Shown here: positions 3,702 to 16,894 of the stretch, piece by piece
How the letters are laid out: every line of letters begins with the position of its first letter
How positions within the stretch are numbered: the first letter of the stretch is position 1
Assembly: GCA_021738385.1 (NCBI GenBank)
Contig: JAIPCF010000013.1
Location: 1 to 45,621, forward strand
Origin: Sulfuritalea sp.
GTDB lineage: Bacteria > Pseudomonadota > Gammaproteobacteria > Burkholderiales > Rhodocyclaceae
Direction: 5' to 3'
Length of the DNA: 45,621 bases
Notes under the pieces: generated by a model
Databases searched by the model: none
What the model saw: the letters and a program-made list of their open reading frames with translations, nothing else
Told to the model about the DNA's origin: nothing
Translations under genes and position numbers: made by a program

Positions 3702-5549
3702 ATGCCCGCCTACCGCTCACGTACTTCCACCCACGGCCGCAACATGGCCGGCGCCCGCGCGCTGTGGCGCGCCACCGGGATGAAGGATGGCGATTTCGGC
3801 AAGCCCATCGTTGCCGTGGTGAACTCCTTTACCCAGTTCGTTCCCGGCCATGTACACCTCAAGGATCTTGGCCAGCTGGTCGCCCGCGAGATCGAAGCAG
3901 CGGGTGGCGTGGCCAAGGAATTCAATACCATTGCGGTCGATGACGGCATCGCCATGGGTCACGGCGGCATGCTTTACAGCTTGCCTTCGCGCGAGCTGAT
4001 CGCCGATTCGGTGGAGTACATGGTCAATGCCCATTGCGCCGACGCCATGGTGTGCATTTCCAACTGCGACAAGATCACCCCGGGCATGCTGATGGCCAGC
4101 CTGCGGCTCAACATTCCGACCGTGTTTGTGTCCGGCGGACCGATGGAAGCCGGCAAGGTCAAGTGGCACGGCGAGTACCGCATGGTGGACCTGATCGACG
4201 CCATGATCGAAGCCGGCGACAACAAGAACAGTGATGCCGATGTCGCTTCCATGGAACGTTCCGCCTGCCCGACCTGCGGTTCCTGCTCGGGCATGTTCAC
4301 CGCGAATTCGATGAACTGCCTGACCGAGGCGCTGGGCCTGAGCTTGCCGGGCAACGGCTCGATGCTGGCGACGCATGCCGATCGAGAAAAACTGTTCCTA
4401 AAGGCCGGGCGCGTGGTGGTCGAACTCTGCCGGCGCTGGTACGAGAATGACGATGCCTCCGCGCTGCCGCGTTCGATTGCCAGTTTCGCCGCGTTTGAAA
4501 ACGCCATTGCGCTCGACATTGCCATGGGCGGCTCGACCAATACCGTGTTGCATCTTTTGGCCGCCGCGCAGGAAGCTGGCGTCAATTTCAACCTGGCCGA
4601 CATCGACCGCATGTCGCGCAAAGTGCCCTGCCTTGCCAAGGTCGCGCCCGCAACGCAGAAGTACCACATGGAAGACGTGCACCGTGCCGGCGGCATCATG
4701 GCCATAATCGGCGAGCTCGACCGCGCCGGTTTGATCAATCGCGACTGCCCGACCGTGTTGTATCCCACCATGGGGGAAGCGCTGGATTGCTGCGACGTCA
4801 AACGAAACAACTCGCCGGCGGTGCATGAGTTCTATCGTGCCGCGCCCGGCGGTGTACCGACCCAGGTCGCGTTTTCGCAGAACCGCCGCTATCCGAGACT
4901 CGATCTGGATCGCGTTAACGGCTGCATCCACGACAAAGCGCACGCCTATTCCACGGACGGTGGCCTGGCGGTGCTCTACGGCAACATCGCCGAGAAGGGC
5001 TGCGTAGTCAAGACAGCTGGCGTCGATGACTCCAACCTGAAATTCACCGGCCGCGCGCGGGTGTGCCAGTCGCAGGAAGAGGCCGTGGAGAAGATCCTCA
5101 CCGACCAGATCGTCGCCGGCGACATCGTGATCGTGGTCTATGAAGGTCCCAAGGGCGGTCCCGGCATGCAGGAAATGCTGTATCCGACCTCGTATCTGAA
5201 GTCCAAGGACCTGGGCAAAGTGTGTGCGTTGCTCACCGACGGCCGCTTCTCCGGCGGTACGTCAGGCCTGTCGATCGGGCACGCCTCGCCGGAGGCCGCC
5301 GCGGGCGGCGCCATCGGACTGGTGGAAGAGGGTGACACCATCGAAATCGACATTCCCAACCGGCGCATTCATCTCGCCATCGAAAAGTCGGCGCTGGCGG
5401 CACGGCGCGTGGCCATGGAGGCGCGCGGTGCAGCAGCGTGGAAGCCGGTGAATCGCGTGCGCGAAGTCTCTTCCGCACTCAAGGCCTATGCCGCCATGAC
5501 CACCTCGGCCGATACCGGCGCTGTAAGAGATACCTCACAACTTTATTGA
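3702..5549 (+). CDS. ilvD: Dihydroxy-acid dehydratase
   Basis: IlvD dehydrates 2,3-dihydroxy-3-methylbutanoate and its isoleucine-pathway homologue to the 2-oxo acids, the third common step of valine and isoleucine synthesis in the cytoplasm. The 615 residues match the E. coli enzyme almost word for word at the N-terminus ([47 protein letters not shown]). Iron-sulfur ligands are visible in [12 protein letters not shown] and [11 protein letters not shown]. The C-terminal [19 protein letters not shown] motif is intact. The start ATG has a GGAG eight bases upstream. It appears to be a single-gene unit. Its stop codon lies inside the FNR-like box of the next operon, so the two transcription units abut without spare DNA. 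Confidence 0.97.
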
Positions 5550-5586
5550 CTTACATCAAGCCTACATTGGAATATAAGCAGATAAT
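5546..5586 (+). promoter_or_regulatory. FNR/Anr-type box with -10 element (class II promoter)
   Basis: TTGAC-TTAC-ATCAA at 5546-5559 matches the FNR/Anr half-site pair TTGAT-N4-ATCAA at nine of ten positions. GATAAT at 5581-5586 is one base off the sigma-70 -10 hexamer. If transcription starts near 5594, the box is centred at about -41.5 and the hexamer falls at about -13 to -8, the geometry of class II FNR-activated promoters. The octaheme cytochrome start lies 34 bases further on behind GGAGG at 5617-5621. Anaerobic activation of the downstream cluster is the inference. Confidence 0.65.
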
Positions 5587-5627
5587 GATTAACGTAATCT
5601 CTTATATGCAGTCGATGGAGGTGTCTC

Positions 5628-7238
5628 ATGGGTCATTCAATCATTCGGGCAACGCTGCTAGCGTGCAGCGCTGCCTGGTTGGCCGTTACAGGACCTGTTT
5701 TTGCGGATGAACCGAAGCCGGAAGTCAAGCCGCTCAAGCTCACCACTACAGCCAATCACACCAAATTCAAGGAGTTGCAGCAGCAATTTCTGACGGGTCC
5801 GGATGTCACCAAGGCATGCCTTTCATGCCACACCGAGGCTGCGGGACAGATTCACCGCACCAAGCACTGGAAGTGGGAATACCTAAACCCGGCGACCAAC
5901 CAGAAGCTGGGCAAGAAAAACGTCCTCAACAACTACTGCATTTCAATCGCGGCCAATCAGGCGGCGTGCACCAACTGTCACGTCGGCTACGGCTGGACGG
6001 ACAACAGTTTCGATTTCACTTCCGAACAGAACGTTGACTGTCTCGTATGCCACGACACCACCGGGTCATACAAAAAGGAGTCGGGAACGGGCGGCAGAGT
6101 ATTTGGCAAGGATACGGAGTTTCCGCCGGGCTCAGGCAACATCATCAAAGGCATCAACCTGAGCAATATTGCGCAAAAGATCGGCAAGACCAGCCGTGAT
6201 ACCTGCGGAGGTTGTCACTTCCGCGGTGGCGGCGGTGATGGCGTCAAGCACGGCGACTTGGACAGCTCGATGGCCGTGCCCGAAAAAGAGCTTGACGTGC
6301 ATATGGACGCGCTGGGCCTGGATTTCACATGCGCGACTTGCCACAAGACTTCCAGCCATGATGTTGCCGGAAGCCGCTACGCACCCACAGCGAAGGACGA
6401 CAAGGGCATACAGACGCGTGGCAAGGCCGGCAGCGGCAACCCCGCGACTTGCGTCGCCTGCCACGGCAACGGCCCGCACAAGAAAGAAGCGCGCTTGAAT
6501 CAGCACGCGAGCAAGGTCGCCTGCCAGACTTGCCACATACCGACATTTGCCCGTGGTGGTATCCCGACCAAGATGGAGTGGGACTGGTCCACGTCGGGCA
6601 AGCTCGACAAGGATGGCAAGCAGTTCGCCATCAAGGACGAAAAAGGCCACAACATCTACGAGTCACGCAAGGGTGACTTCAAGCTCGGCGAAGATGTCGT
6701 ACCGGAGTACGCCTGGTTCAACGGGCATGTCGAGTACACTTTGCTGACCAGCACGATTGAAAAAAGCGAAACGGAGCGTACACCGATCAACAAGCTGGGC
6801 GGTAGCGCGACCGACGGCAAATCCCTGATCTGGCCAATGAAGGTTTTCCGCGGCACGCAACCCTATGACCCGGTGAACAAGACATTGGTGACGCCGCATA
6901 CCACCGGCCCCACAGGCTACTGGAAAACCCTGGTCTGGGATAAGGCGATCGAGGAAGGCATGAAGGATTCCGGTCGGCCCTTCTCTGGCAAGGTGGATTT
7001 CGTCAAGACCACAATGTCATGGCCGATCACCCACATGGTCGCACCGAAGGAAAAAGCGCTGGGCTGCGTCGAATGCCATAGCAAGGAAAGTCGGCTGGCC
7101 GGTATCCAGGGCATCTACATTCCGGTGCGTGACAACAACCGGCTGCTGGACACCATCGGCTGGAGCGTGATCTTCCTGACCCTTCTTGGCGTCATCGGTC
7201 ACGGCGCCCTGCGCATCGTCACCGGCCGCAGGCATTGA
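5628..7238 (+). CDS. Octaheme c-type cytochrome, tetrathionate reductase (OTR) family
   Basis: A 536-residue exported multiheme cytochrome. A signal peptide ends near VFA-26. Eight CXXCH heme sites begin at Cys64, 114, 138, 193, 235, 275, 299 and 480. One transmembrane helix at about 508-530 is followed by a short basic tail, so the heme domain is held on the periplasmic face. Heme number and overall order fit the octaheme tetrathionate reductase family described in Shewanella, whose purified member reduces tetrathionate and also nitrite and hydroxylamine. The true substrate here is unknown. The next gene is a cytochrome b, a likely quinol-linked electron partner. Expression is probably switched on without oxygen (FNR-like box at 5546). 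Octaheme sulfite reductase (MccA) or hydroxylamine oxidoreductase-like enzymes are less likely alternatives. Confidence 0.82.
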   Translation: MGHSIIRATLLACSAAWLAVTGPVFADEPKPEVKPLKLTTTANHTKFKELQQQFLTGPDVTKACLSCHTEAAGQIHRTKHWKWEYLNPATNQKLGKKNVLNNYCISIAANQAACTNCHVGYGWTDNSFDFTSEQNVDCLVCHDTTGSYKKESGTGGRVFGKDTEFPPGSGNIIKGINLSNIAQKIGKTSRDTCGGCHFRGGGGDGVKHGDLDSSMAVPEKELDVHMDALGLDFTCATCHKTSSHDVAGSRYAPTAKDDKGIQTRGKAGSGNPATCVACHGNGPHKKEARLNQHASKVACQTCHIPTFARGGIPTKMEWDWSTSGKLDKDGKQFAIKDEKGHNIYESRKGDFKLGEDVVPEYAWFNGHVEYTLLTSTIEKSETERTPINKLGGSATDGKSLIWPMKVFRGTQPYDPVNKTLVTPHTTGPTGYWKTLVWDKAIEEGMKDSGRPFSGKVDFVKTTMSWPITHMVAPKEKALGCVECHSKESRLAGIQGIYIPVRDNNRLLDTIGWSVIFLTLLGVIGHGALRIVTGRRH

Positions 7239-7246
7239 CAAAAATG

Positions 7247-7316
7247 GACCCCCACGCTCACTTTGTTCGCTGCCCCCCGAGGGGGCGTTCGCTGCCCTTC
7301 GGGTGGCCGGGCGGGC
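7247..7316. repeat. Intergenic GC-rich dispersed-repeat copy between cytochrome genes
   Basis: The stretch begins with CCCCCACGCTCACT and contains a GCCCCC-CGA-GGGGGC hairpin at 7272-7286, followed by TTCGCTGCCCTTCGGGTGG. From memory this phrase recurs between genes in many Burkholderiales genomes, so I read it as a copy of a dispersed intergenic repeat. It splits the octaheme and cytochrome b genes and could stabilise or terminate part of the transcript. There is no T-run after the hairpin. Confidence 0.55.
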
Positions 7317-7334
7317 AACGAAAGGAGAACTGTA

Positions 7335-7931
7335 ATGGCTGAACGTATCTACGTCTTCAAGCGCTTCGAACGCTTCTGGCACTGGTCGCAGGCTGCGCTG
7401 ATCATCTTCCTGATGCTCACCGCCTTCGACATCCACGGCACCTACACCATCTTCGGCTTCGAGAAGGCGGTCGAATACCACACCATCGCCGCCTGGTCGC
7501 TGATGGGGCTGTGGGTGTTCGCGATCTTCTGGCACTTCACCACCGGCGAATGGAAGCAATACATCCCGACCACGGAAAAGGTCATGGCGATGGCAAACTA
7601 CTACCTGTTCGGCATCTTCAGGAACGCACCGCACCCCTTCCGCCTGACGCAGCTGCGCAAGCACAATCCGCTGCAGCGCTTGGCCTACCTCGGCGTGATG
7701 CTGTTCATCGGCCCGCTGATCTGGATCACCGGCGTGCTCTACCTGTTCTATGCCGACTGGCCCAGCCTGGGCCTGGGCGGCCTGTCGCTGGAATGGGTCG
7801 CCACCGGCCACGTCATCGGCGCCTTCCTGATGCTGGCCTTTCTCATCGCCCACGTCTATCTGACCACCACTGGCCATACGCCCACGGCCCATATCAAGGC
7901 CATGGTCACCGGCTGGGAAGATGTTGATTGA
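7335..7931 (+). CDS. Membrane cytochrome b (cytochrome b561 / b-type domain)
   Basis: A 198-residue integral membrane protein with four to five hydrophobic helices. It opens with the motif RFERFWHWSQAALIIFLMLT, typical of the di-heme cytochrome b subunits of hydrogenases, formate dehydrogenases and thiosulfate reductases. Candidate heme-ligand histidines are in FWHWS (helix 1), EYHTIAAW and FWHFTTGEW (helix 2), TGHVIGAF (helix 4) and IAHVYLTTTGH (helix 5). The likely role is passing electrons between the quinone pool and the octaheme cytochrome. I place the start at the ATG following AAAGGAG (7321-7327); an upstream in-frame extension would lie in the repeat and is unlikely. The final GHTPTAHIKAMVTGWE resembles the tails of such subunits. 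Confidence 0.85.
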   Translation: MAERIYVFKRFERFWHWSQAALIIFLMLTAFDIHGTYTIFGFEKAVEYHTIAAWSLMGLWVFAIFWHFTTGEWKQYIPTTEKVMAMANYYLFGIFRNAPHPFRLTQLRKHNPLQRLAYLGVMLFIGPLIWITGVLYLFYADWPSLGLGGLSLEWVATGHVIGAFLMLAFLIAHVYLTTTGHTPTAHIKAMVTGWEDVD

Positions 7932-8025
7932 TTGATCAATTTTGGGCAACGATACAATGTCTGAATCAGTCGGCCAAACGCCTTAACTAAAATCCCATAA
8001 CCCGATTTGCCTAAGGAGTACAAAC

Positions 8026-8412
8026 ATGAAAATGAACAAGACCCTGACAGCCGGAGCCGCCTTGTGCCTGCTCGCTACCTCGGCCTTCGCCTACGACGGC
8101 AACTGGAAAGTCGGCCGCATCTACTACCGCAGCGTCTGCACCTCCTGCCATGCCGCGTTGCCGATCGGCACGATCAATCCGAGCACCAAGACCAAGGCCG
8201 AATGGGCCGCCTACCTGACGGCAGACAAGCACGCTAAAGGCAAGGAAACGGTCAGCCAGTACGTCAGCAAGGCGTATCGCGCGAGTATCAAGGCCGGCAA
8301 CAAGGCGGCCGAGAAGTTCGCCAACAACCCTGATTCTGAACTCGCCGCGGATATCAAGGCCTTCCTGATCAAGGGTGCCAAGGACGGCGATTCTCCGGCA
8401 ACTTGCAGCTAG
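8026..8412 (+). CDS. Small periplasmic monoheme c-type cytochrome
   Basis: A 128-residue precursor with a clear signal peptide ending at SAFA-22, followed by one heme site, CTSCH at 38-42. The mature chain has no methionine, so the usual His/Met heme ligation is impossible. His69 or the cysteine next to the C-terminus (Cys127) are the visible alternatives. The rest is Lys/Ala-rich helix. An AAGGAG precedes the ATG. A possible -10 (TACAAT, 7953-7958) lies in the 94-base gap after the cytochrome b gene, so this gene may have its own promoter as well. By position it probably carries electrons in the octaheme/sulfur cluster. I do not recognise a named family beyond cytochrome c. Confidence 0.8.
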   Translation: MKMNKTLTAGAALCLLATSAFAYDGNWKVGRIYYRSVCTSCHAALPIGTINPSTKTKAEWAAYLTADKHAKGKETVSQYVSKAYRASIKAGNKAAEKFANNPDSELAADIKAFLIKGAKDGDSPATCS

Positions 8413-8439
8413 TCGCTAAGTCTCGATCGGGGAGCGGTG

Positions 8440-9684
8440 ATGAGCGGCGATAGCGGGTCGGGCTGGTCGGCAGGCTTCAAGGCCGACTACGAGCGGATAT
8501 TCGTCGATGAGTGGTCACCCTTTGTCGGTGCCATGCTGCTGGTCTTCGTCATCATCGGCTTGATGACCAGCGGCCTCGTCTGGGGTGTGTTCGGCGGCGT
8601 CAAGTTCTGGGGCGACTGGTTCAACAACTTGATCGGCCTTGGCCCTTTGCTTGGGGTTCCGCACGAGCTTGACGGTTTCACCATGCACCGCATGTCGCTG
8701 ATGAACATCATGCTGGTGCTCGGCGCCTTCTCGGCTGCGCTGTTGTCGCGCCAATTCAGCCCCAATCGCCCACCGAAACTCGAATATCTCTGGGCCGCGA
8801 TCGGCGGCAGCATGCTCGGCATCGGCGCGGCACTGGCCGGCGGCTGCACCACCGGAGGCTTCTTCAATCCCGTGCTGCATTCCTCGCCGGCTGGATGGGC
8901 CATGGCGGCCGGCCTGCTGGCCGGCGCGGCAATCGGACTCAAGCTCTTGCTGTGGACCCTGGAGCATGTCGAATGGGGAATGCAGGCGCCGCCCGCGCTC
9001 GACATTCCCGACGGAGTTCGCCAGAAGTATCCCTTGCTCGGGCTGGCGGTGATCGTCGCCGTGCTGATCTGGGCCACGCAATGGTACGGCTCGGACGACG
9101 ACAAACTCGTGGCCAGGGCGGTGATCGTGGTGGCCGGTTTTGCCATCGGCTTCATCATGCACCGCTCGCGCCTGTGTTTTGCCCGCGCCTTTCGCGAACC
9201 CTTCATGACCGCCGAAGGCGACATGACCAAAGCGGTGATTCTCGCGCTGACGATCGGGATACCGCTCGCCGCGCTGCTGTTCCAGAAAAAGGTCATCGAT
9301 CCCTACCTCGCCATTCCCGCCACGTTCTGGATTGGCTCGCTGGTCGGCGGCCTGATCTTCGGCATCGGCATGGTGTTTGCCGGTGGCTGCGCCTCTGGAT
9401 CGCTGTGGCGCATGGGAGAGGGTCACCTCAAACTGTGGGTGGCGATGTTCTTTTTCTCGTGGATGGGATCGACCGCCAGCGCCGTGTTCAAGAGCCTGGG
9501 CCTGACCTCCATCGACGAAACCAATGTCGAACTGTTCGAAATGACCAAGCTGGGCTTCCAGGCCTATCTGCCGGAAATGCTTGGCGGCTGGGGCTGGACG
9601 CTGCTGATCGGCGGCGGCCTGTTGCTGCTCTGGTACGCGCTGGTTCGTTACAACGAAAGCACCGAAAAATTCACCGTCCTCTAA
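8440..9684 (+). CDS. YeeE/YedE family transporter (TsuA-like sulfur-compound importer)
   Basis: A 414-residue polytopic inner-membrane protein of the YeeE/YedE (Sulf_transp) family. Two homologous halves each carry the family's Gly-Gly-Cys loop: ALAGGCTTGGFF (Cys136) and VFAGGCASGSLW (Cys317). A third conserved segment, HRSRLCFARAFRE, contains Cys246. In the characterised thiosulfate importer TsuA such cysteines line the path and bind thiosulfate, which supports thiosulfate or a related sulfane-sulfur compound as substrate here. GTG and ATG starts lie side by side at 8437 and 8440. I favour the ATG, five bases after GGGGAG. It follows the small cytochrome by 27 bases and is followed by two rhodanese genes, an arrangement pointing to sulfur handling. 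Confidence 0.85.
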   Translation: MSGDSGSGWSAGFKADYERIFVDEWSPFVGAMLLVFVIIGLMTSGLVWGVFGGVKFWGDWFNNLIGLGPLLGVPHELDGFTMHRMSLMNIMLVLGAFSAALLSRQFSPNRPPKLEYLWAAIGGSMLGIGAALAGGCTTGGFFNPVLHSSPAGWAMAAGLLAGAAIGLKLLLWTLEHVEWGMQAPPALDIPDGVRQKYPLLGLAVIVAVLIWATQWYGSDDDKLVARAVIVVAGFAIGFIMHRSRLCFARAFREPFMTAEGDMTKAVILALTIGIPLAALLFQKKVIDPYLAIPATFWIGSLVGGLIFGIGMVFAGGCASGSLWRMGEGHLKLWVAMFFFSWMGSTASAVFKSLGLTSIDETNVELFEMTKLGFQAYLPEMLGGWGWTLLIGGGLLLLWYALVRYNESTEKFTVL

Positions 9685-9710
9685 TCATCACGCTCCAAGG
9701 AGATCAAATT

Positions 9711-10481
9711 ATGATGAAGCTCAAACTGTTTGCCATGGTGGCTTCCATAGCCCTTGTTTCCGGCTGTGCCCAGACGCCGCCGGGCTCTGCGAATGCCAAG
9801 GCCGCCGAATCTGCGGATGGGCTGATCCGCTACCAGCACGTCGTCGACTATGCCTACATCAAGAAGCACGCCGCGTTGCCGCGCGACGAAAAGGCCTCGC
9901 TGATCGTCGATTCGCGTCCTGCCGCGCGCCGCTACGACATCGGTCACATTGCCGGCGCCATCAACATTCCGGAGTCGCAGTTCGACAAACTGGCCCCGAC
10001 CATGCTGCCCGCCGACAAGAAAGCCGAGATTATCTTCTACTGCCAGGGTCCAACCTGCGACCTCTCGGCCAAATCGGCATTCAAAGCCGAGAAGCTTGGC
10101 TATACGAACCTCAAGGTCTATGAAGCCGGTATCCCGGACTGGCAGGCCAAGGGCGAACCCGCCTCCGTCAGCACGGCCTTCATGCAGAAGATCATCGCCG
10201 AAAAGGCCGACATCGTGCTGATCGACTCACGGCCCGCCCGCCGCGTCAAGAGCGAAGGCACCATCCCCGGCGCCATCAACATTTCCGACACCAGCTTCGA
10301 CAAGGAAGTCGGCAAGCTGCCGCAGGACAAGCAGAAGGAAATCATCTTCTTCTGCCAGGGCTTCGCCTGCGACCTGTCCGACAAGTCGGCCAAGAAGGCG
10401 ATGGCGCTCGGTTACAAGAAGGTCCGCACCTACGCCGCTGGCTTCCCAGCCTGGAAGGCCGCCACCGAAGGCAAGAAATAA
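9711..10481 (+). CDS. Tandem-rhodanese lipoprotein
   Basis: A 256-residue protein beginning with a lipoprotein signal (lipobox LVSGC, Cys19) followed by two rhodanese domains, about 40-150 and 151-250. Each has a putative active-site cysteine in nearly the same unusual loop: CQGPTCD (Cys111) and CQGFACD (Cys215). Standard sulfurtransferases have loops such as CRxGxR. The second cysteine four residues after the first could form a disulfide or persulfide pair. The two halves are clearly internal duplicates (VDSRPAARR and IDSRPARRV; GHIAGAINIPES and GTIPGAINISDT). It is expected on the periplasmic membrane face, possibly handing sulfane sulfur to or from the transporter encoded just upstream. 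An AAGGAG precedes the ATG pair at 9711/9714. Confidence 0.82.
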   Translation: MMKLKLFAMVASIALVSGCAQTPPGSANAKAAESADGLIRYQHVVDYAYIKKHAALPRDEKASLIVDSRPAARRYDIGHIAGAINIPESQFDKLAPTMLPADKKAEIIFYCQGPTCDLSAKSAFKAEKLGYTNLKVYEAGIPDWQAKGEPASVSTAFMQKIIAEKADIVLIDSRPARRVKSEGTIPGAINISDTSFDKEVGKLPQDKQKEIIFFCQGFACDLSDKSAKKAMALGYKKVRTYAAGFPAWKAATEGKK

Positions 10482-10542
10482 GGCAGCAGGGATGGCGGGA
10501 TTCGCCATCCCCATCCCCCCGTCAAGCCATGGAGATCCATAC

Positions 10543-10965
10543 ATGAAGAACTCTTATCTAAAAATCGTCCTGTGCGCCGCCACACTGGCATTTGCCTCGC
10601 TGGCTGCGGCCGCCGACATTCCCATTGAGGCTGGCAAGGAGAAAGGCAGCATCAGCGTCGCCTCCTTCAACCGCATCGTCAAGGAAAACCCGTCGCAGAT
10701 CGCCATCGTCGATGTGCGCGACGACAGGGAATTCAAGAAGGGCTCCTTCCCCGGCGCCATCAACATGCCCGTCGGCGACGTAGAGAAAAAAATGGGCGAG
10801 TTGCCGAAGGACAAGCCGGTGGTTTTCGTCTGTCCGACCGGCGCGCGTTCCGGCGAAGCCTACGACACGGTGAAAATGCTCGGTGGCAACGTGAACGCCT
10901 ACTTCGTCGACGCCAACATTGCGTTCGGCTCGGACGGCACCCAGACCGTCACCGAGAGGAAGTAG
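10543..10965 (+). CDS. Periplasmic single-domain rhodanese
   Basis: A 140-residue precursor with a signal peptide ending around AAAA-24 and one rhodanese domain. VDVRDDREF, GAINMP and the active loop CPTGARS (Cys97) are all normal for a sulfurtransferase, in contrast to the modified loops of the preceding lipoprotein. It would move sulfane sulfur in the periplasm. The chosen ATG has GGAG (10531-10534) upstream; an upstream in-frame codon would give a non-signal extension. Its stop overlaps the next start by one base, so the two are translationally coupled. Confidence 0.85.
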   Translation: MKNSYLKIVLCAATLAFASLAAAADIPIEAGKEKGSISVASFNRIVKENPSQIAIVDVRDDREFKKGSFPGAINMPVGDVEKKMGELPKDKPVVFVCPTGARSGEAYDTVKMLGGNVNAYFVDANIAFGSDGTQTVTERK

Positions 10966-11429
10966 TGACCGAGTTCCAGCGCCTTTACACCGGCCGCCTC
11001 TGGTCGGTGCTGGCCTGGGATCAATTGGCTGCACTATGGCAGCGTATCGACCCTGCCGCCGGCTGGTATCTGCAGGCGGTGGGTGTCCCCAGTCCGGGCA
11101 CCGCCTCGGAAAGGGTTGTCGTTGCGTCCGCGGGACCCACCCCGGCGGATGCAACGACTGTCAGCGCCTTTATCACCGGTATCGACGCTTTGCTGCGGGC
11201 GGATCATCATGAATCCTATTGCGGCATTGTGTACGCGGACGATCTAGAAAATCCCCGCTTAATCAAGATCTTCGATCCAAATAACTTGGGTTCTTCCTGC
11301 GGCTCGTCGAAAAATCCTCCGCCACCGGGTTGGATCATGAGCCGTGTGGCGCCCGATGAAATCATTTCCGCCCGGTCCGCCCCCGCAAACCGGAGGCGTT
11401 GGTGGCAAAGCTTGCTCGGAGATAGCTAG
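10965..11429 (+). CDS. Conserved-looking protein of unknown function, coupled to rhodanese gene
   Basis: A 154-residue, probably cytoplasmic protein starting at a GTG that overlaps the stop of the preceding rhodanese gene by one base. No signal peptide or membrane helix is visible. The N-terminal half is hydrophobic-aromatic (RLWSVLAWDQLAALW). The second half has a striking segment, ESYCGIVYADD then KIFDPNNLGSSCGSSKNP, with two cysteines in strongly patterned contexts and a proline run, which looks like a conserved ligand or sulfur-handling site. I do not recognise the family. Tight coupling to the rhodanese suggests it belongs to the same sulfur pathway, perhaps as a cytoplasmic acceptor or assembly factor. 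It is the last gene of the apparent cluster. Confidence 0.7.
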   Translation: MTEFQRLYTGRLWSVLAWDQLAALWQRIDPAAGWYLQAVGVPSPGTASERVVVASAGPTPADATTVSAFITGIDALLRADHHESYCGIVYADDLENPRLIKIFDPNNLGSSCGSSKNPPPPGWIMSRVAPDEIISARSAPANRRRWWQSLLGDS

Positions 11430-15901: not shown

Positions 15902-16894
15902 ATGGACATTTTTCTTCAGCAGATCATCAATGGCCTTACGACCGGCAGCGTATATGCCGTTGTTGCGCTGGGTTATACGATGGTCTACGGCATCATTCAG
16001 CTGATCAACTTTGCCCACGGTGAAGTGGTAATGATCGGGGCCATGGTGGCCTTCACCTTTATTACTTCGCTGGCTGGCGGAAATCTTCCCGCGCCTGTGA
16101 TTTTGCTTGCCGGTGTGCTCGCTGCTGTCCCGACCTGCATGGTGATCGGGTACTTGCTCGAGCGAGCTGCTTACCGTCCATTGCGCCATGCGCCGCGACT
16201 GGCTCCGCTGATTACCGCCATTGGCATGTCGATTATTTTGCAGCACCTCGCACTGCTGGTTTGGGGCCGCAACCCGATGTCCTTTCCGCAAATCATGGAG
16301 AACCCGATTATTCCCATTGGTGGCGCTGTCATCAGTGGTGTGCAAATCGGCATCATTCTGCTCTCCTTCATGATGATGGCCGGTCTGACATGGTTCGTCT
16401 ATCGCACCCGCTTTGGTATCGCCATCCGCGCTACTGCGGAAAATGTACGCGTCGCGGAGTTGATGGGAGTCAATGCCAACCGGGTGATTGCCGCCACATT
16501 CATCATTGGTGCCGGGCTCGGCGCAGTTGCAGGTGTTATGTTTGGAACGTATTACGGCATTGTTCATTACACGATGGGCTTTACCCTGGGCCTCAAAGCG
16601 TTTTCGGCCGCGGTACTAGGCGGTATCGGCAATATTGCCGGCGCAATGGTGGGGGGAATACTGCTCGGCCTGGTCGAGGCGTTGGCCACCGGCTATATTG
16701 GCGATTTGTCTAACCTGTGCCACTGGCCAGGCTTGGGTACCAGTAGCATGCTCGCTGAACGCTGCGCGGATGGCGGCAACTTTGTCGTATTCGGATCCAA
16801 TTATCAGGACGTTTTCGCCTTCCTGATGTTGATTCTGGTTCTTGTTCTGCGTCCATCCGGTTTGCTGGGCGAGCGCGTGTCGGAGCGGGCATGA
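15902..16894 (+). CDS. livH: Branched-chain amino-acid ABC transporter permease LivH
   Basis: A 330-residue polytopic permease. It starts DIFLQQIINGLTTGSVYAVV, the classic LivH opening, and has ALGYTMVYGIIQLINFAHGE, the EAA-like loop ATAENVRVAELMGVNANRVI and the C-terminal LVLVLRPSGLLGERVSERA. It pairs with LivM to form the channel. I start at the ATG at 15902. No clear Shine-Dalgarno is present because the preceding bases are the livK terminator tail; an in-frame TTG at 15887 is less likely. An insertion near residues 267-305 (SNLCHWPGLG...) is longer than in E. coli LivH. Its stop overlaps the livM start (ATGA). Confidence 0.93.
   Translation: MDIFLQQIINGLTTGSVYAVVALGYTMVYGIIQLINFAHGEVVMIGAMVAFTFITSLAGGNLPAPVILLAGVLAAVPTCMVIGYLLERAAYRPLRHAPRLAPLITAIGMSIILQHLALLVWGRNPMSFPQIMENPIIPIGGAVISGVQIGIILLSFMMMAGLTWFVYRTRFGIAIRATAENVRVAELMGVNANRVIAATFIIGAGLGAVAGVMFGTYYGIVHYTMGFTLGLKAFSAAVLGGIGNIAGAMVGGILLGLVEALATGYIGDLSNLCHWPGLGTSSMLAERCADGGNFVVFGSNYQDVFAFLMLILVLVLRPSGLLGERVSERA

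Follow-up and report, generated by a model that had tools for sequence, protein, structure and literature searches.

The question raised by this locus is what an octaheme cytochrome of the octaheme tetrathionate reductase (OTR) family does in one gene row with a membrane cytochrome b, a YeeE/YedE-family transporter and three rhodanese domains. The locus lies in 45,621 nucleotides of Sulfuritalea sp. DNA (Burkholderiales, Rhodocyclaceae; assembly GCA_021738385.1, contig JAIPCF010000013.1, positions 1 to 45,621 of the forward strand), a stretch which we call the window and which is part of a 3.34 Mb draft genome. Seven plus-strand open reading frames (ORFs) were verified at 5628-11429 and, judging by the comparison of related loci, the first six genes are a conserved unit. 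We propose, with a rough probability of 0.47, that this unit is a low-oxygen sulfane-sulfur operon, in which a quinone-linked periplasmic oxidoreductase and a persulfide relay would act together with an importer feeding the cytoplasmic Dsr. The gene set was not described in the open PubMed Central (PMC) papers searched (subscription papers and preprints lay outside the search), in agreement with an initial annotation, made from the sequence alone, which knew of no named system of this composition. Within these limits of the literature, the components are of known kinds and what appears to be new is their combination, the exclusiveness of the partner genes, the link to dsrA and the FNR/ANR-type site. 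Publications are cited below by PMC number, mostly from excerpts; loci and genomes are cited by L and G numbers.

Organisation of the gene row and its products

5546..5559, plus strand: FNR/ANR-type box TTGACTTACATCAA, predicted from the motif, overlapping the ilvD stop codon
5581..5586, plus strand: -10-like hexamer GATAAT, beginning 21 bases past the FNR/ANR-type box
5628..7238, plus strand: OTR octaheme cytochrome c (TIGR04315)
7335..7931, plus strand: b561-type membrane cytochrome b (PF01292)
8026..8412, plus strand: monoheme cytochrome c, single CXXCH (CTSCH)
8440..9684, plus strand: YeeE/YedE-family transporter (PF04143), alternative GTG start at 8437
9711..10481, plus strand: double rhodanese, probable lipoprotein (PF00581 twice)
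10543..10965, plus strand: single-domain rhodanese with a signal-like N-terminus (PF00581)
10965..11429, plus strand: 154-residue protein of no family, its start overlapping the rhodanese stop by one base

The intergenic gaps between the seven genes are, in order, 96, 94, 27, 26, 61 and -1 bases, and a purine-rich stretch precedes the start codon of each. The upstream gene, ilvD, ends at 5549. The initial annotation had read seven consecutive same-strand genes from position 5546 onwards, and the ORFs together with the Pfam and NCBIfam scans bear out the genes and their domain families; its start is where the FNR/ANR-type box begins, the OTR start codon lying 82 bases later. The same scans agree with its octaheme OTR-family cytochrome (curated model and eight hemes), its quinol-type cytochrome b beside OTR (b561-type by PF01292), its monoheme cytochrome c (single CXXCH, OTR-associated family) and its two-domain rhodanese, for which lipoprotein status is probable. 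The gap between OTR and cytochrome b has a GC-rich part with the look of an inverted repeat at 7255-7320 (CCCCCGAGGGGGCG, occurring once in the window).

OTR scores 604 bits with TIGR04315, where the cut-off is 375, which places it in the octaheme tetrathionate reductase family, and 1SP3 from Shewanella oneidensis is the sole PDB sequence that it matches at E 0.001 (E = 1.3e-108). It contains eight CXXCH motifs, and its Cys104 and Lys207 align with Cys64 and Lys153 of 1SP3, which we take to be situated at the active heme; the eight motifs and the equivalents of both residues are kept in all 96 dereplicated OTRs compared (1SP3 included). In the Shewanella enzyme, heme II is the catalytic heme (PMC4484225). 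The window's protein thus shares the curated family, the heme motifs and these two residues with the Shewanella OTR, but stands on a long separate branch from it (1.22 changes per column in a tree of the 96 OTRs). The Shewanella enzyme binds the small tetraheme cytochrome STC (PMC4484225), whereas in the window a cytochrome b gene follows OTR, and OTR itself has a signal-like N-terminus and a C-terminal hydrophobic helix (residues 506-524).

The cytochrome b (PF01292, E = 1.5e-23) is presumed to be the quinone partner of OTR. Its best NCBIfam model is thiosulfate reductase cytochrome b, and this assignment was rejected at 129 bits, below the cut-off of 204. The cytochrome c, probably exported, has a single heme motif (CTSCH) and matches PF13442 weakly (21 bits, cut-off 27); comparison of its structure model (mean pLDDT 74) with the PDB gave 18 matches at E up to 10, with none at 0.001 or better and the best at 4.5.

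The double rhodanese has the active-site loops CQGPTC and CQGFAC, whose cysteines (111, 116, 215 and 220) are invariant in nine aligned sequences including the window's, and a lipobox-like VSGC can be read in its sequence. The single rhodanese matches PF00581 at E = 5.4e-13 and has the active loop CPTGARSG with Cys97; it had been called a periplasmic rhodanese, of which the rhodanese domain is confirmed and the location is predicted from a signal-like N-terminus. We infer export of both rhodanese proteins. The double and the third rhodanese are fused in one frame in 48 of the 51 loci which hold both, the exceptions with two separate frames being the window, L004 and L011.

The transporter, of 414 or 415 residues depending on the start, belongs to the YeeE/YedE family (PF04143, 145 bits), as the initial annotation had stated, but its further description as TsuA-like is not supported: the curated TsuA models failed (NF052577 with 103 bits against 400, NF041049 with 77 against 645) and, compared with 6LEO, its two halves have changed places, residues 232-351 matching 7-125 and residues 34-159 matching 199-315. 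Its assignment to the selenium YedE type was likewise rejected, as both curated models stayed below cut-off although the best NCBIfam match is the selenium-metabolism model. Its only cysteines, Cys247, Cys318 and Cys137, align with Cys22, Cys91 and Cys293 of 6LEO; these are conserved, and Cys91 and Cys293 are indispensable (PMC11582611). A second YeeE/YedE protein of the same genome (in L001, G000:C41:21184-22161) has PF04143 in the usual order (1-308).

Conservation and co-occurrence of the gene set

The public loci are the best 80 of 195 candidates from a profile search of genome contigs, so they lean towards near relatives; the 42 in which OTR is flanked by 6 kb or more on each side are regarded as intact. 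All 42 intact loci contain the cytochrome b, 36 the cytochrome c, 34 the double rhodanese, 32 the third rhodanese and 23 the transporter, and there are also a DsrE-family protein (13), two half-size YeeE proteins (11 and 12), the seventh protein (10), DUF302 (6) and a TlpA-like protein (5). Cytochrome b is present in 75 of the 80 public loci, the record ending 1-132 bases past the OTR match in the other five, and in 33 of 38 stretches from the draws of the class and the order (L143-L180), where L178 is cut by a contig end and L172 and L175-L177 are without it. In these two draws, 29 OTR-first loci have neither cytochrome c nor rhodanese in the fetched stretch.

OTR scored over cut-off in 23 of 250 genomes of the order; in the searches for its partners, the first-look candidates of some genomes were scored in part. 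The cytochrome c family (A1, E up to 1e-15) was found in 7 of the 250 genomes and the transporter subfamily (E up to 1e-60, the weakest match being 3e-186) in 9, always with OTR and always at most 5 kb from it; the double rhodanese (E up to 1e-30) was found in 7, all of them OTR genomes, within 5 kb in 5 and otherwise on another contig (G469) or far away (G619). The hypergeometric chance of this, phylogeny ignored and with profiles built from OTR-adjacent sequences, is 2e-8 for cytochrome c, 9e-11 for the transporter and 2e-8 for the double rhodanese. The families named in the initial annotation are thus found together well beyond one genome, with the seventh gene being restricted to a lineage.

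This seventh protein (10965-11429) has no Pfam or NCBIfam family above cut-off and its structure model is poor (pLDDT 43), while its mean column identity is 67% over 16 sequences (the window and 15 relatives). It had been suggested to be a coupled member of the unit, which we do not uphold: of the 80 public loci 15 have it, and these all belong to the Sulfuritalea-like part of the list; its gene does not always adjoin the row, lying 500-600 bases further away in some loci. It is probably a lineage-specific neighbour, and its gene lies near a CheY-like gene.

In many Sulfuritalea-like loci (L008, L014, L019, L063 and others) a half-size YeeE pair, which the window does not have, lies between cytochrome c and YeeE; such loci have two putative sulfur transporters in one operon.

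The FNR/ANR-type box

The FNR/ANR consensus is TTGAY-N4-RTCAA, and TTGACTTACATCAA at 5546-5559, noticed by eye and then tested, fits it. Within 310 bases upstream of the OTR profile match, the motif was found in 40 of 51 rhodanese-type OTR-first public loci (window included), OTR copies with less than 320 bases upstream or with a short or weak profile match being excluded from the count. Altogether it occurs 57 times across 1.34 Mb of public loci, and in 47 of 80 upstream windows. With the spacer varied in the same 51 loci, a spacer of 4 gave 40, spacers of 0-3 and 5-9 gave none and a spacer of 10 gave one; among 60 orderings of the half-sites, only two others exceeded one (13 and 12), both overlapping the same site by consensus. 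The hexamer GATAAT beginning 21 bases past the box, which we take to be a class II FNR layout, ranks first among the -10 matches in 13 of 37 non-redundant box promoters (Sulfuritalea-like, window included), and the remaining promoters have other hexamers, many of them at 21-24 bases. Motif and class II distance to the -10 hexamer together make it a predicted FNR/ANR site; a generic sigma-70 promoter scan reported no promoter upstream of OTR.

The motif precedes the first gene in none of 7 cytochrome c-first public loci, in 1 of 5 rhodanese-type OTR-first loci of the class and order draws (the mislabelled L215 being among the five) and in 4 of 14 and 5 of 15 DUF302-first loci. Because it is rare or absent in these groups, the box is, as far as the motif counts tell, a trait of the Sulfuritalea and Rhodoferax-like part of the family and not of the whole unit. 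Where present, the box points to low-oxygen expression, which suits a reduction. Another FNR/ANR-type motif of the window (16460-16473) was discarded as it lies inside an ORF; at least two matches arose in 2 of 100 window shuffles, and it is probably there by chance.

Gene content of the host genomes

In the order, dsrA is present in 20 of 23 OTR genomes and in 2 of 27 controls (Fisher p = 8e-9), and soxB over cut-off in 22 of 23 and 13 of 27, respectively (Fisher p = 4e-4), the controls being chosen non-randomly and phylogeny uncorrected. In the class outside the order, dsrA was found in 22 of 31 OTR genomes and 11 of 41 others (p = 3e-4), and leaving out G093, G096 and G401, whose OTR is partial or below cut-off, it is in 21 of 28 (p = 2e-4). 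Partial dsrA was counted as present (G050, in broken pieces, G659, G093 and G268) and soxB matches below cut-off as absent. The genus-mates G002, G004, G005 and G007, outside the 23, are all positive for soxB and dsrA, the latter being in pieces in G004.

Among 48 genomes taken from the loci, dsrA is in 21 of 24 with the transporter and 14 of 24 without it (Fisher p = 0.049). G665 was counted as transporter-less, although its locus L039 holds part of one at a contig end, and its reassignment gives 22 of 25 and 13 of 23; a 40-residue remnant is left in G662 (L036). This set overlaps the draw of the order (G661 and G469, for example, share coordinates), so the dsrA tests are not independent. Both the transporter subfamily and dsrA are missing from the three Aromatoleum and two Accumulibacter genomes, in which OTR, the cytochromes and the rhodaneses are present.

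The public loci include records named Sulfuritalea, Sulfuricella, Sulfurisoma, Thiobacillus and Thiogranum, and by gene content the hosts look like sulfur oxidisers; because of these hosts, their dsrA is taken as the oxidative kind.

Proposed function and its alternatives

In the proposed operon, quinol electrons would pass via cytochrome b to OTR, which would act in the periplasm by reducing a sulfur-sulfur bond of tetrathionate, another polythionate or polysulfide. The tandem rhodaneses would carry sulfane sulfur as persulfide to the YedE-type transporter, the transporter may deliver it to the cytoplasm, and Dsr, working in the oxidative direction and represented by dsrA in most hosts examined, would oxidise it there; the cytochrome c could provide a further exit or entry for electrons. 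Least certain in this scheme are the direction in which OTR works, its substrate and the transport of sulfur. The proposal is supported by the restriction of three partner subfamilies to OTR genomes, the dsrA and soxB counts, the box, the OTR residues kept in all 96 sequences, the tandem rhodaneses beside a distant OTR branch and the analogue in Desulfurivibrio dismutans, and also by extra sulfur genes in relatives, namely those for the DsrE-family protein, the half-size YeeE pair and DUF302. The initial annotation had likewise suggested that a sulfur oxyanion is reduced in the periplasm and that rhodaneses pass sulfane sulfur to an importer; of this reading the conserved unit is supported, while the reduction stays a proposal.

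Several points weigh against this sequence-based proposal. The transporter is in 23 of the 42 intact loci and so is not essential to the unit, and dsrA is also in 14 of the 24 transporter-less genomes, the difference being marginal. A TusA-like partner of the TsuB/YeeD kind was not found among the seven genes and the two flanking ones, a genome-wide search for TusA not having been made. The two-part YedE1E2 is a reported importer of zero-valent sulfur, and full-length YedE3 of E. coli and Cupriavidus, in contrast to YedE1E2, did not accelerate polysulfide uptake (PMC10812762); as the window's transporter is also full-length, this counts against the transporter step. Half-size YeeE pairs comparable to YedE1E2 are known from 11-12 of the 42 intact relatives' loci, but not from the window. 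The sulfur-oxidiser gene content of the hosts makes a purely reductive role not obvious. To these come the OTR-adjacent origin of the cytochrome c and rhodanese profiles, the choice of the control genomes, and the scarcity of the box in the cytochrome c-first loci and in the class and order draws.

It is unlikely, but worth serious weighing, that the same parts run in reverse, with OTR oxidising thiosulfate or rhodanese-bound persulfide, electrons passing via cytochrome b to quinone in a nitrate-dependent manner and the transporter supplying Dsr. The soxB (22/23) and dsrA (20/23) counts in OTR genomes speak for it, as do the loci in the sulfur-oxidiser records named above; since this association indicates sulfur-oxidising hosts, it gives an oxidation under nitrate some plausibility. 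The box fits nitrate-respiring sulfur oxidation too, because FNR-family sites also serve denitrification. However, the Shewanella OTR is described as a reductase (PMC4484225), and the closest published analogue, in Desulfurivibrio dismutans, is a reductase operon (PMC12142623).

We consider it rather improbable that OTR and cytochrome b form a nitrite or hydroxylamine reductase, with the sulfur genes being neighbours with a separate job. Boxes of this motif may alternatively be of the nitric oxide-responsive kind, which would suit such a role, and the Shewanella OTR reduces nitrite and hydroxylamine besides tetrathionate (PMC4484225); against this, none of the three partner subfamilies was found apart from OTR in the 250 genomes, the dsrA association appears in two samples, and rhodaneses also stand beside a distant OTR branch (L172 and L174, see below). 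An equally low probability is given to the genes sharing nothing more than low-oxygen regulation, so that OTR and cytochrome b would respire a sulfur compound and the rhodaneses and transporter would serve assimilation or detoxification of sulfur or selenium. The 29 OTR-first loci mentioned above and the sub-cut-off selenium-metabolism match of the transporter agree with such a division, but in the draw of 250 genomes no partner subfamily turned up in a genome lacking OTR.

A further extension of the low-oxygen operon, to which we would give little credence at present, is a molybdenum-free dismutation of sulfur in Betaproteobacteria, of which the unit would form the reductive and import arm, with Dsr refilling the quinol pool under anoxia. 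OTR and cytochrome b would then reduce part of a periplasmic sulfur intermediate with quinol electrons, and the rhodaneses and YedE-type transporter would send the remaining sulfane sulfur to the oxidative Dsr. If true, an octaheme cytochrome would here take the part that Psr has in the Desulfurivibrio scheme.

Relation to known systems

In Desulfurivibrio dismutans, one of the products of a Psr operon is a three-rhodanese protein that is exported, and sulfur moves on towards Dsr by way of YeeE/YedE (PMC12142623). Common to both, on our reading, are the quinone-linked periplasmic sulfur enzyme, the three rhodanese domains, YeeE/YedE and the cytoplasmic Dsr. In the window the three domains are divided as two plus one, with export predicted from the N-termini; the enzyme is an octaheme cytochrome instead of Psr, no molybdopterin catalytic subunit of the Psr type being present in the nine window proteins scanned, and YeeE/YedE of D. 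dismutans lies outside the Psr operon as described. In Dethiobacter alkaliphilus, a SirA-like octaheme cytochrome is found with rhodanese proteins (clusters 5-T and 4) and is up in thiosulfate-grown cells (PMC10376724), so that there, too, an octaheme cytochrome gene adjoins rhodanese-domain genes. However, the octahemes of Dethiobacter share 20-23% identity with Otr or SirA of Shewanella, and the passages of PMC10376724 on these clusters do not mention cytochrome b, monoheme cytochrome or transporter.

The YTD cluster of sulfur-disproportionating bacteria (PMC13047784) shares the YeeE-type transporter and, with some relatives of the window, a DsrE-family protein (in 13 of 42 intact loci), but its TusA and DsrE-like genes are not in the window operon, and the word octaheme was not found in PMC13047784. 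The SoxT1A module of Hyphomicrobium denitrificans resembles our proposal in YeeE-like sulfur import for cytoplasmic oxidation with thiol-protein neighbours; it differs in being tied to Sox and sHdr and not to OTR, and in its 330-350 residues (PMC11582611), compared with 414 or 415 and swapped halves in the window, the likeness being drawn from the published description only. In lucinid symbionts, otr lies beside soxY-S3 and soxZ, so that an OTR gene adjoins a sulfur-carrier gene in sulfur oxidisers, but the carrier is SoxY and not a rhodanese, and a transporter at the locus is not described in the excerpts of PMC11237559.

The natural job of OTR is unsettled, as papers assign tetrathionate or nitrite to it (PMC4484225, PMC11237559), and periplasmic sulfur import for cytoplasmic oxidation has been called poorly understood (PMC11582611). 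A conserved operon of OTR, rhodanese and transporter genes, mostly accompanied by dsrA and with a low-oxygen control site, offers a genetic target for both questions in culturable genera.

The OTR tree and other OTR neighbourhoods

In the quick tree of the 96 OTRs, the nearest to the window's protein are from Sulfuritalea and one Burkholderiaceae metagenome-assembled genome. A clade of 46 OTRs (support 98) has 40 rows labelled rhodanese-type, a label given where a cytochrome c or rhodanese profile match lies at most 5.5 kb from OTR; six other rows fall within it, four of them cut by contig ends (L009, L053, L056 and L082), one having a transporter beside OTR (L203) and one a rhodanese elsewhere in the genome, with L222 (L208). 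The label of L215 is false, resting on a 19-bit match. All 21 DUF302-type loci are on one separate branch (support 99), and the mutual relation of the two clades is not settled by this tree. The C-terminal hydrophobic stretch of OTR is present in 41 of 42 rhodanese-type, 20 of 21 DUF302-type and 27 of 29 other OTRs. L172 and L174, from outside the order, have tandem rhodaneses directly upstream of OTR; their OTRs stand on a long branch that belongs to neither clade, and OTR and rhodaneses may thus have become associated a second time, independently.

Three other neighbourhoods were observed. In the DUF302-type clade, a DUF302 protein lies directly upstream of OTR in all 21 tree rows, often with a TlpA-like thioredoxin-fold protein nearby (e.g., L064-L066, L068-L071, L073, L075 and L077-L081, and from the class and order draws L145, L154, L205 and L207). 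In L220 (G644:C1:1160847-1179703) the order is DUF302, OTR, cytochrome b, cytochrome c, YeeE, rhodaneses, OTR and cytochrome b, so that two OTR copies flank the sulfur genes. In L144, L147 and L150, outside the order, pairs of OTR and cytochrome b have another kind of partner next to them, namely further conserved genes for multiheme cytochromes.

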